Source of the DNA: Chloroflexi bacterium bin125
Lineage (GTDB): Bacteria > Chloroflexota > Dehalococcoidia > Bin125
Assembly (NCBI GenBank): GCA_002239025.1
Contig: MPNM01000001.1
Span: 124,001-188,000, forward strand
Direction of reading: 5' to 3'
Length of the DNA: 64,000 nucleotides
Part shown: positions 56,578 through 63,934 of the stretch, in pieces
Position numbering within the stretch: the stretch's first letter is position 1
Layout: each line of letters opens with the position of its first letter
The notes under the pieces: generated by a model
Told to the model about the DNA's origin: nothing
Database searches by the model: none
The model's input: only the letters and a program-made list of their open reading frames with translations
Program-made: the position numbers and the translations under genes

Positions 56578-57927
56578 CTACAGGACCGCCAGATACCGCC
56601 GGAGCTCGTAGTCCGTCACTTGCGAGCGGTACTCGTCCCACTCCATGCGCTTGTTTTGCAGCACGGTGGACCAGACGTAGTCTCCGAGCACAGTCTTCAT
56701 CAACTCCGAGGACGAGAACGCGTCAATCGCGCGTCCCTGCGTGGTCGGCATCTCGATGATGTCCCGCTCGGCCCGCTGTGCTTGGGTGAGCTCGAAGACG
56801 TTGTCTTCAGCAGCCGGCGGCGGCGTCAGACCCTCATCGATGCCGCGCAAGCCTGCGGCGAGGAACGCAGAAAACGCCAGGTAGGGGTTGGTCGCTGAAT
56901 CCGCCCCGCGATACTCGAGCCTGGTCGACTCCGAGTCGCTCGGATCGTATTCGGGAATCCGCACGAGGTCAGATTGGTTGGCGTGTGACCAGGTCAGGTA
57001 GACGGGCGCCTCGGTACCCGGGGCGAGCCGCTTGTAACTGTTGGACCACTGGTTGGTGATCAACGTGAACTGTGGGGTGTACGCCAGCAGCCCGGCGAGG
57101 AAGGAACGAGCGATTTCGGACAGGCCGCCGCCCGCTTCATAGAACAGATTCTGCTCGTGATCCCAGAGCGAGAGGTACACATGCATTCCCGACCCGTTCA
57201 CACTATTGAGCGGCTTGGGCATGAACGTTGCGTGGACGCCCTGCTTGATCGCGACCTCCTTGACGACCAGGCGTGTGGTCATCACCTGGTCCGCCATGGT
57301 CAGCGCGTCGGTGTAGCGCAAGTCGATTTCGTGTTGCGACGGCGCTGCCTCGTGGTGCGAGGATTCGACCGCGATGCCCATCTCTTCTAGCGTCAGCACG
57401 GTTTCGCGACGCAGATCGGTCGCAGTGTCGAGCGGGGAGAGATCGAAGTACCCGCCGGAGTCCAGCGGCGACGGATCATCGGGCGCCTTGAAGTAGAAGT
57501 ACTCAATCTGCGGCGCCACGTAGAAGGTGTAGCCGCGTTGCTGAGCCGATTCGAGCTGGCGGCGCAGTATGCGTCGAGGATCGCCCTCAAACGCCTCGCC
57601 GTTGCGACGCCGAATGTCACAGATCATCCGCGCAACGCGGTGCTGCTGAGGACGCCAGGGCAAGACAACGAACGTATCCGGATCGGGCAGCGCCACCATG
57701 TCGGACTCGTCGTGCCGTGCGAACCCCTCGATCGACGCGCCGTCAAACTCGACGCCCTTCTCCAACGCTTTGGGCAGTTCGTCGATCGTGATTGCCACAG
57801 ACTTGAGCTGGCCCAACAGGTCGGTGAACCACAAGCGGACAAAACGAACGTCGTGTTCGCGGCAGGCGTTCAGGACGTGCTGGTGCTCGCTGGGTGGGGC
57901 GTTAAGGTCGGAGTCGAGGGTGGTCAT
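56578..57927 (-). CDS. glnA: Glutamine synthetase type I (short form)
   Basis: This enzyme makes glutamine from glutamate, ammonia and ATP. The 449-residue protein has VEFDGASIEGFARHDESDMV, the metal site ESSHHEAAPSQHEIDL, ATFMPKPLNSVNGSGMHVY and NSYKRLAPGTEAPVYLTWSH. The adenylylation-site region of the beta type is not seen, so it is closer to the GSI-alpha group found in Firmicutes, Thermotoga and archaea. It lies 211 bases downstream of a second, different GS gene on the same strand. Confidence 0.92.
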   Translation of the reverse strand: MTTLDSDLNAPPSEHQHVLNACREHDVRFVRLWFTDLLGQLKSVAITIDELPKALEKGVEFDGASIEGFARHDESDMVALPDPDTFVVLPWRPQQHRVARMICDIRRRNGEAFEGDPRRILRRQLESAQQRGYTFYVAPQIEYFYFKAPDDPSPLDSGGYFDLSPLDTATDLRRETVLTLEEMGIAVESSHHEAAPSQHEIDLRYTDALTMADQVMTTRLVVKEVAIKQGVHATFMPKPLNSVNGSGMHVYLSLWDHEQNLFYEAGGGLSEIARSFLAGLLAYTPQFTLITNQWSNSYKRLAPGTEAPVYLTWSHANQSDLVRIPEYDPSDSESTRLEYRGADSATNPYLAFSAFLAAGLRGIDEGLTPPPAAEDNVFELTQAQRAERDIIEMPTTQGRAIDAFSSSELMKTVLGDYVWSTVLQNKRMEWDEYRSQVTDYELRRYLAVL

Positions 57928-59662: not shown

Positions 59663-59690
59663 ATCCTATGACCAGCAACGCTTGCGTCAG
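59663..59690 (-). promoter_or_regulatory. Candidate promoter of the long glnA
   Basis: On the minus strand CTGACG (59690-59685) and TAGGAT (59668-59663) are 16 bases apart. The -10 sits inside an inverted repeat TTGCTGG-N14-CCAGCAA (59651-59678). Support is moderate because both hexamers deviate from consensus. Confidence 0.4.
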
Positions 59691-59695
59691 ACGCT

Positions 59696-59716
59696 CCTGA
59701 GTTACACCTGAGTTAC
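59696..59716 (-). promoter_or_regulatory. Direct repeat resembling a GlnR box upstream of glnA
   Basis: CCTGAGTTAC occurs twice with an 11-bp period (59696-59705 and 59707-59716). On the minus strand this reads GTAAC-N6-GTAAC, the half-site and spacing known for GlnR boxes and usual for OmpR-type dimers. It ends six bases upstream of the candidate -35, a position suited to activation. The GlnR-like gene itself lies 400 bases away. Confidence 0.55.
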
Positions 59717-59815
59717 GCGCCGCTGAGAGGCGCGCATCAGTCGCACTCTGTATCCGGCTTGTCTCTCCACAAGGCAAACTGGCAGGTCTCCCCATGGAAA
59801 CCGTCGATAAGCCCT

Positions 59816-59941
59816 CTCCGTCATTGCCGCGCTCCGCCGCGGCAATCTCGCAGCGTTCGGCGCCGACGTGTCCGTTGGAATCAGCGAGATACCCCCGTTC
59901 AAGCCGGGGGCAGGCTCCGCGACAAGCGCGGGTATGACGGG
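59816..59941. repeat. Family B elements (copy B5, two palindromes)
   Basis: The first palindrome is TCATTGCCGCGCTCCGCCGC followed by GGCAATCTCG. The second part runs GAGATACCCCCGTTCAAGCC to GCGGGTATGACGG. The two together mirror the arrangement at 32048-32149. It fills the gap between the GlnR-like gene (3' end) and the GS control region. Apart from the control sites, 59558-59960 holds no gene. Confidence 0.82.
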
Positions 59942-59960
59942 GAAATTCGTGTGTCAACAG

Positions 59961-60623
59961 TCAGCGCAGCGGCAAGGCAAACCGATAGCCCACGTTGCGC
60001 ACCGTCTCGACGTAGCGCTGGCCGCCCGACTCCAACTTCGACCTCAACCGCCTGATGTGTACGTCGACCGTCCGCGAGCCACCGTAGTAGTTGTAGCCCC
60101 AGACTCGGTTGAGCAGCGTCTCTCGCGTGAACACCTGCTGATTGTGGGTCATCAGGAAGCGCAACAGCTCGAACTCCTTGAACGTCAGCGAGATCGAGCG
60201 ACCGCCCTCGAACACCTGGTAGTTGGAGGTATCGACCACCAGGTCGCCGGCCTCCAGCGTGTTTCGGGTCAGCGCCCGGCCATGACGCCAGAGCACGAGT
60301 TGCACCCGAGCCACAAGCTCGGCGTCATGCACCGGAGCGAGGACGAAATCGTCGAGTTCCTGGGTCGGACCGAGCAGCTGCGTGTCGGCCGGTCGCAAGG
60401 CGGCAAGCCGCATCGCCTCGGGCCAAGCCAGGACCTCAGCCGGCCGAGCCGCCGGCACCGCGTGACGCCAGTCCAGGAGGAGCACGTCGGGCGCAGCTGC
60501 TGGATCTGGCTCGTTGCCTTCAGCCGGAATGAAGCGCACCACCTGCAGGCCGGCGCGTTCGAGCGGCGGCTGAATCGGCGTGATGAAGTCGTCATCAACC
60601 GTCGACACTGTCAATCGGAACAT
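59961..60623 (-). CDS. GlnR-like OmpR-family response regulator
   Basis: This 220-residue regulator has a receiver-like domain (1-110) and a C-terminal winged helix (about 125-218). The winged helix contains SLTFKEFELLRFLMTHNQQV, FTRETLLNRVWGYNYYGG and TVDVHIRRLRSKL. Asp51 (VLLLDWR) is at the phosphorylation position, but the switch Lys is replaced by Ala96 (DDFVLAPV). The receiver therefore probably does not use normal phosphorylation, as in actinobacterial GlnR, whose general pattern (LLLDWRHAVP, LDDFVL) it shares. No histidine kinase is next to it. Its place beside two glnA genes supports a nitrogen role. Exact orthology is inferred. Confidence 0.8.
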   Translation of the reverse strand: MFRLTVSTVDDDFITPIQPPLERAGLQVVRFIPAEGNEPDPAAAPDVLLLDWRHAVPAARPAEVLAWPEAMRLAALRPADTQLLGPTQELDDFVLAPVHDAELVARVQLVLWRHGRALTRNTLEAGDLVVDTSNYQVFEGGRSISLTFKEFELLRFLMTHNQQVFTRETLLNRVWGYNYYGGSRTVDVHIRRLRSKLESGGQRYVETVRNVGYRFALPLR

Positions 60624-63660: not shown

Positions 63661-63892
63661 CCCCTCTCCCCCCCAAGGGGGGGGAATGTCACGGAGTGGC
63701 AGTGGGGGGGGTCGGCGGGTGACGAGCAGACAGGGTTAGCAGCCAGGGAGACCCCCCTCTGCCCCCGGGTCGAGCCCGGGGCAGGCATGCGGCATCTCCC
63801 CCGCAAAGGGGGGAGAAGTGGAATCGAACGTGGCTTTCAACCAGTGTGCAACACGCGTCGAGATTCCCGCGGCGGAGCGCGGGAATGACGGA
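63661..63892. repeat. Family A element (A8) followed by a family B palindrome (B7)
   Basis: The A part (63661-63822) has CCCTCTCCCCCCCAAGGGGG then GAATGTCACGGAGTGGC, a hairpin CCCCCGGGTCGAGCCCGGGG as in the copy at 45385, and CGGCATCTCCCCCGCAAAGG. The B part (63860-63892) is GAGATTCCCGCGGCGGAGCG followed by CGGGAATGACGGA, then two short echoes of GGCGGGAATGATGG. Nothing else is seen in 63585-63934. Confidence 0.82.
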
Positions 63893-63934
63893 GCTACGGC
63901 GGGAATGATGGATCTACGGCGGGGATGAGGACCG

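Follow-up and report, generated by a model that had tools for sequence, protein, structure and literature searches.

The control of nitrogen assimilation by GlnR has so far been described in Actinobacteria. The 64-kb stretch of DNA analysed here (the window), whose relatives are annotated as Dehalococcoidia or Chloroflexi MAGs, carries a short direct repeat in front of glnA and, nearby, a gene for an OmpR-type regulator. Is this repeat the operator of that regulator, and does the pair extend the GlnR switch to a second phylum? No GlnR-type system of Chloroflexi or Chloroflexota is described in the titles and abstracts of the open papers searched, subscription literature being outside the scope of this search. 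The comparisons presented below indicate that the adjoining GlnR-like regulator very probably binds at this box.

A conserved repeat in the glnA promoter

The original prediction described a 10-bp direct repeat with an 11-bp period, just upstream of a candidate -35 of glnA, whose half-sites are spaced as in known GlnR boxes. The repeat is indeed exact: on the minus strand, GTAACTCAGGT GTAACTCAGG is read from 59716 down to 59696, and the ATG of glnA lies 159 bp downstream of the start of the box (Table 1). Its N6 spacing, or 11-bp period, agrees with the published consensus, which is GTnAC-n6-GTnAC in S. venezuelae and t/gTAAC-n6-Gc/aAAC in M. smegmatis (PMC10704036). The window contains a single GTAAC-N6-GTAAC and 100 dinucleotide shuffles yielded none, the chance expectation for the window being 0, and a pattern search found it only once in the whole 3.68-Mb genome. 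A second gene of the glutamine synthetase family stands in tandem after glnA, an arrangement that is kept across the genus; its substrate may be ammonia or an amine, and no box was found upstream of it. Apart from one tRNA, no riboswitch or other RNA family was found near glnA.

Table 1 Features around the box, in window coordinates
Feature	Position	Strand	Remarks
GlnR-type box, two GTAACTCAGG half-sites, 11-bp period	59696..59716	minus	Proposed operator of the neighbouring regulator
-10-like hexamer TAGGAT (context CATAGGATGA)	59663..59668	minus	Spacing of 37 bp to the G of the second GTAAC
glnA, type I glutamine synthetase, 472 aa	58139..59557	minus	TIGR00653, 633 bits (cut-off 429); Gln-synt_N and Gln-synt_C
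Second glutamine synthetase-family gene, in tandem after glnA	56578..57927	minus	TIGR00653, 449 bits (cut-off 429)
Orphan OmpR-type regulator, 220 aa, degenerate receiver and winged-helix DNA-binding domain	59961..60623	minus	Nearest solved relatives are actinobacterial GlnR

The search of 15 genomes of the genus returned 18 matches to GTAAC-N6-GTAAC, of which 14 lie before glnA, and the box is kept at glnA in 14 of the 15 genomes. The one genome without it (G003) is a fragmented assembly in which the regulator was likewise not found. When the upstream regions of glnA are aligned, GTAACTCAG[GC]TGTAAC is almost invariant amid diverged flanks and is followed by CATA[GC]GAT. The gap between regulator and glnA ranges from about 0.2 to 2.3 kb in the genus, yet the box still adjoins glnA, and in G013, where glnA is on the opposite strand, the box is nevertheless found beside it. 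Because the box stays with glnA through these changes of gap and strand, it is part of the glnA promoter and not a tail of the regulator gene. Similar inverted-repeat elements of a dispersed kind (GTCATTCCCGC...GCGGGAATGAC type) lie in the intergenic stretches 59780-59950 and 63850-63920 of the window and may be the cause of the variable gap in the genus.

In each of the 13 genus glnA promoters measured, 37 bp separate the second GTAAC (counted from its G) from the TA of the -10. No conserved -35 was found between box and -10 in the genus glnA promoters compared, most of the intervening sequence not being conserved. This corrects the prediction in one point: what is conserved of the core promoter is the -10 hexamer and not a -35.

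Related sites at amtB1-glnK

Similar sites were expected, if the prediction was right, at orthologous glnA promoters and before other nitrogen genes, and both turned up: besides the glnA sites described above, the same genomes carry a GCAAC-N6-GAAAC box at the amtB1(-glnK) promoter, usually preceded by extra half-sites at 11-bp steps. Genomes of the genus encode one or two ammonium transporters each, in most cases closely followed by a P-II gene. In the genome of the window, amtB1-glnK is on a contig other than that of glnA (C29, with the promoter around 85,660), and the array consists of the successive 11-mers GAAAT-GCAAC-GAAAT-GCAAC-GAAAC. The amtB1 array is followed by CATAGGTT, and 26 bp separate its last half-site from the -10 TA, exactly 11 bp less than at glnA.

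The 15 genus genomes were scanned in full with patterns and with a sequence-only profile made from the glnA and amtB1 sites. At E<=0.014 the profile gave 27 matches, 14 at glnA and 13 at amtB1, and none elsewhere, the best other match having E=0.23. A match is a matter of course for those sites from which the profile was made, and the informative part is the absence of other matches; placement of the box is near-exclusive to these two promoters.

No GlnR-type box was found at the amtB2 promoters of the genus, which instead hold a conserved GTAACCAGT...ACTGGTT element. At amtB2-glnK (L094-L108) it takes the form AATTCATA...CGTAACCAGT...ACTGGTTC, with inverted AACCAGT/ACTGGTT, beside a divergent SDR-like gene, and is perhaps the site of another regulator.

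The extra GTAAC-N6-GTAAC matches in G003, G005, and G007 are not at glnA or amtB and were set aside as due to chance or to another regulator; the gene names given for their surroundings are a reading of translations. In G003 (L075:1480-1540), three GTAACTCGNCG repeats with an 11-bp period are located between divergent cysH-like and Rrf2-type regulator genes, followed by a cysK-like gene, which looks like an operator for a sulfur regulator whose half-sites are similar by coincidence. Another match lies between genes resembling two subunits of a 2-oxoacid:ferredoxin oxidoreductase, and a third at the 5' end of an uncharacterised ORF.

The regulator resembles GlnR

The gene about 400 bp upstream of glnA, on the same strand, had been taken for an OmpR-type regulator with GlnR-like features, and the protein comparisons agree. 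Pfam recognised a strong Trans_reg_C domain and no receiver domain in this protein, and its best sequence relatives among solved structures are GlnR (8hig, 130 bits; 8hih, 121 bits; 8hml, 107 bits), followed by RegX3 (93 bits) and PhoB (89 bits). Reciprocally, GlnR finds the window regulator as its best match among four OmpR proteins of the genome, the three others being canonical. An AlphaFold2 model (pLDDT 89, pTM 0.55) comprises a receiver-like fold and a winged helix, whose relative orientation is unsure given the pTM. The winged helix matches the DNA-binding domains of GlnR at 52-54% identity, but PhoB and VicR match it too, so the fold alone does not discriminate GlnR. The DNA-binding domain of the window protein is 51% identical to that of E. 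coli PhoB versus 51-55% to GlnR, and the PhoB recognition helix (RTVDVHIRRLR) is nearly identical to its own; among the linked relatives of the class, the mean identity of this domain is 54% to GlnR versus 41-47% to other OmpR proteins.

In the receiver, D51-W52-R53 aligns with D50-A-R52 of GlnR, and neither the canonical Lys nor the canonical Ser/Thr is present. The pseudo-receiver of GlnR has a charge network of Asp50 and Arg52 (and Thr9); the window protein has a T8 close to its N terminus, which is not aligned with Thr9. The receiver Asp of GlnR stabilises an unphosphorylated dimer (PMC10704036). Many class relatives are missing the Asp or the Arg, and the pair is not conserved across the class. 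No ORF with a HisKA motif was found at the 83 class loci analysed or in the window between 54 and 64 kb, and the same test was positive at the locus of the canonical paralogue L157, where a kinase is nearby.

A quick tree of full-length sequences grouped the regulator relatives and GlnR against seven other OmpR proteins (SH-aLRT 99). Trees of the DNA-binding domain, based on a short alignment with long branches, neither rejected nor showed a GlnR clade (p-AU 0.455); they also joined E. coli PhoB, doubtfully, to the window protein and were dropped as a proof of orthology. We regard strict orthology to GlnR as likely.

No autoregulatory box was found before the regulator gene in the window. Boxes occur at this position in 6 of 81 class loci, five of which belong to one genus of family f33 (L227, L229, L231, L233, and L241); there, an identical box, GTAACCCGCCGGTAAC, 34-61 bp upstream of the regulator start, suggests autoregulation.

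Proposed mode of action

A box located upstream of a -10 with no conserved -35 is the usual layout of OmpR/PhoB-type activators, and at glnA and amtB1 the boxes occupy a fixed helical phase (37 and 26 bp, respectively). The direction of control is not readable from sequence, and actinobacterial GlnR has also been reported, in the title of one paper, to repress some genes (PMC7886694); it is therefore conceivable, although unlikely, that the regulator represses glnA and amtB1, for instance when nitrogen is in excess. However, Streptomyces glnA is activated by GlnR (PMC10704036). In the complex of GlnR with RNA polymerase, four DNA-binding domains are bound head-to-tail on four sites, and S. coelicolor GlnR requires two boxes at glnA and three at amtB (PMC10704036). 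Because the phased half-sites, their upstream position, the lack of a conserved -35, and the ammonium import and assimilation targets fit this picture, we read the sites as activator sites.

We hold it to be highly probable that the repeat is the operator of the neighbouring GlnR-like protein and that this protein is a GlnR-type activator of ammonium assimilation. The regulator would be an orphan member of the OmpR family, and phosphorylation is probably not what switches its pseudo-receiver. At least two of its winged-helix domains would bind head-to-tail on GNAAC half-sites 11 bp, or one helical turn, apart, at a fixed phase relative to the downstream -10. Once bound, the regulator would most likely help to recruit RNA polymerase at glnA and amtB1-glnK, and we propose that glnA and the amtB1-glnK operon are in this way switched on when nitrogen is short.

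Association of regulator and site across the class

A relative of the regulator was detected in 178 of 244 genomes of the class (E<=1e-33), most of the genomes compared being MAGs, and in a phylum-wide sample 38 of the 40 regulator matches fell within Dehalococcoidia. Among 83 sampled loci of regulator relatives, 35 have the regulator directly upstream of amtB (27) or glnA (8) on the same strand. GNAAC pairs at 11-bp spacing are present in 20 of these 35 linked gaps (mean 0.16 and maximum 2 in shuffled gaps) and pairs with a 22-bp spacing in 17, whereas no other spacing from 6 to 23 reaches more than 2; the perfect pair is absent from 15 linked gaps. No 11-bp pair was found on the other strand of the linked gaps. 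The best -10 candidates tend towards 15+11n bp from the last half-site, a weaker observation.

An independent test used amtB promoters of genomes in which the regulator lies elsewhere: 20 of these 30 carry the 11-bp pair (other spacings, 22 excepted, at most 4). A further 20 amtB promoters came from genomes with no detected regulator, 9 of them outside the class. Four within-class promoters of this set carry the 11-bp pair; a more divergent copy of the regulator was perhaps missed there, because related genomes of the same families have a detectable one. This recurrent link of regulator, box, and nitrogen gene in Dehalococcoidia supports the predicted nitrogen control module outside the Actinobacteria, but the module is not fully self-contained, since amtB1-glnK, on another contig, shares it.

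The same counts bear on which protein binds the box. Direct repeats of 11 bp are typical of the whole OmpR/PhoB family, the genome encodes nine Trans_reg_C proteins, and, with a recognition helix so close to that of E. coli PhoB, the binding protein could be another OmpR-family member, such as a PhoB- or RegX3-like phosphate regulator, the neighbouring gene being incidental. We find this quite improbable, as none of the 48 control gaps beside unlinked regulators contains an 11-bp GNAAC pair, none of the 9 amtB promoters outside the class (regulator undetected) has a box, and the profile sites of the genus are confined to glnA and amtB1. One short repeat could arise by chance, but a functionless 10-bp duplication has a negligible probability and is already refuted statistically by the conservation of the box in relatives, amid diverged flanks, with its constant -10 spacing and class-wide 11-bp recurrence.

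Implications and comparison with known systems

Because the regulator-and-site pair recurs across a class of Chloroflexota, the GlnR-type switch appears to be present in a second phylum. The chances seem to us evenly balanced that the GlnR regulon is ancestral to most Dehalococcoidia, with pseudo-receivers degenerate to the point that many have lost the phospho-acceptor Asp. If this is true, GlnR control predates, or moved between, Actinobacteria and Chloroflexota, and the nitrogen signal of GlnR cannot be phosphorylation of that Asp. To our knowledge, this signal is unknown even in Streptomyces, and a divergent branch whose targets are adjacent and whose receivers in part lack the Asp is for this reason a natural comparison in the search for it. 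For a mostly uncultured class, the system also offers a testable ammonium-assimilation circuit with a readable operator code.

The GlnR of Bacillus and other Firmicutes, of the MerR family, has a role in nitrogen control too, but it is an unrelated protein family with which the name alone is shared. OmpR regulators of the PhoB/RegX3/MtrA type share the domain architecture and likewise have operators made of 11-bp direct repeats, located upstream of the -10. Unlike the window regulator, they keep the phospho-receiver residues, as exemplified by the L157 paralogue of the genome; RegX3 and PhoB also score below GlnR against the window protein (89-93 versus 130 bits), and a further difference is that the profile scan of the genus found sites at glnA and amtB1 only. 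With actinobacterial GlnR (S. coelicolor, S. venezuelae, M. smegmatis, and M. tuberculosis), the regulator shares the winged-helix motifs GGxRTVDVH[VI]RRLRxK and TVRNVGY, a degenerate receiver with no partner kinase, and 11-bp-phased GNAAC/GTNAC half-sites, often in arrays, with glnA and amtB-glnK as targets, putative ones in the present case (PMC10704036). It differs from it in its phylum, in a receiver that is even more divergent, with many relatives lacking the Asp, in having a strong box at only two promoters in this genus, and in often adjoining amtB or glnA.
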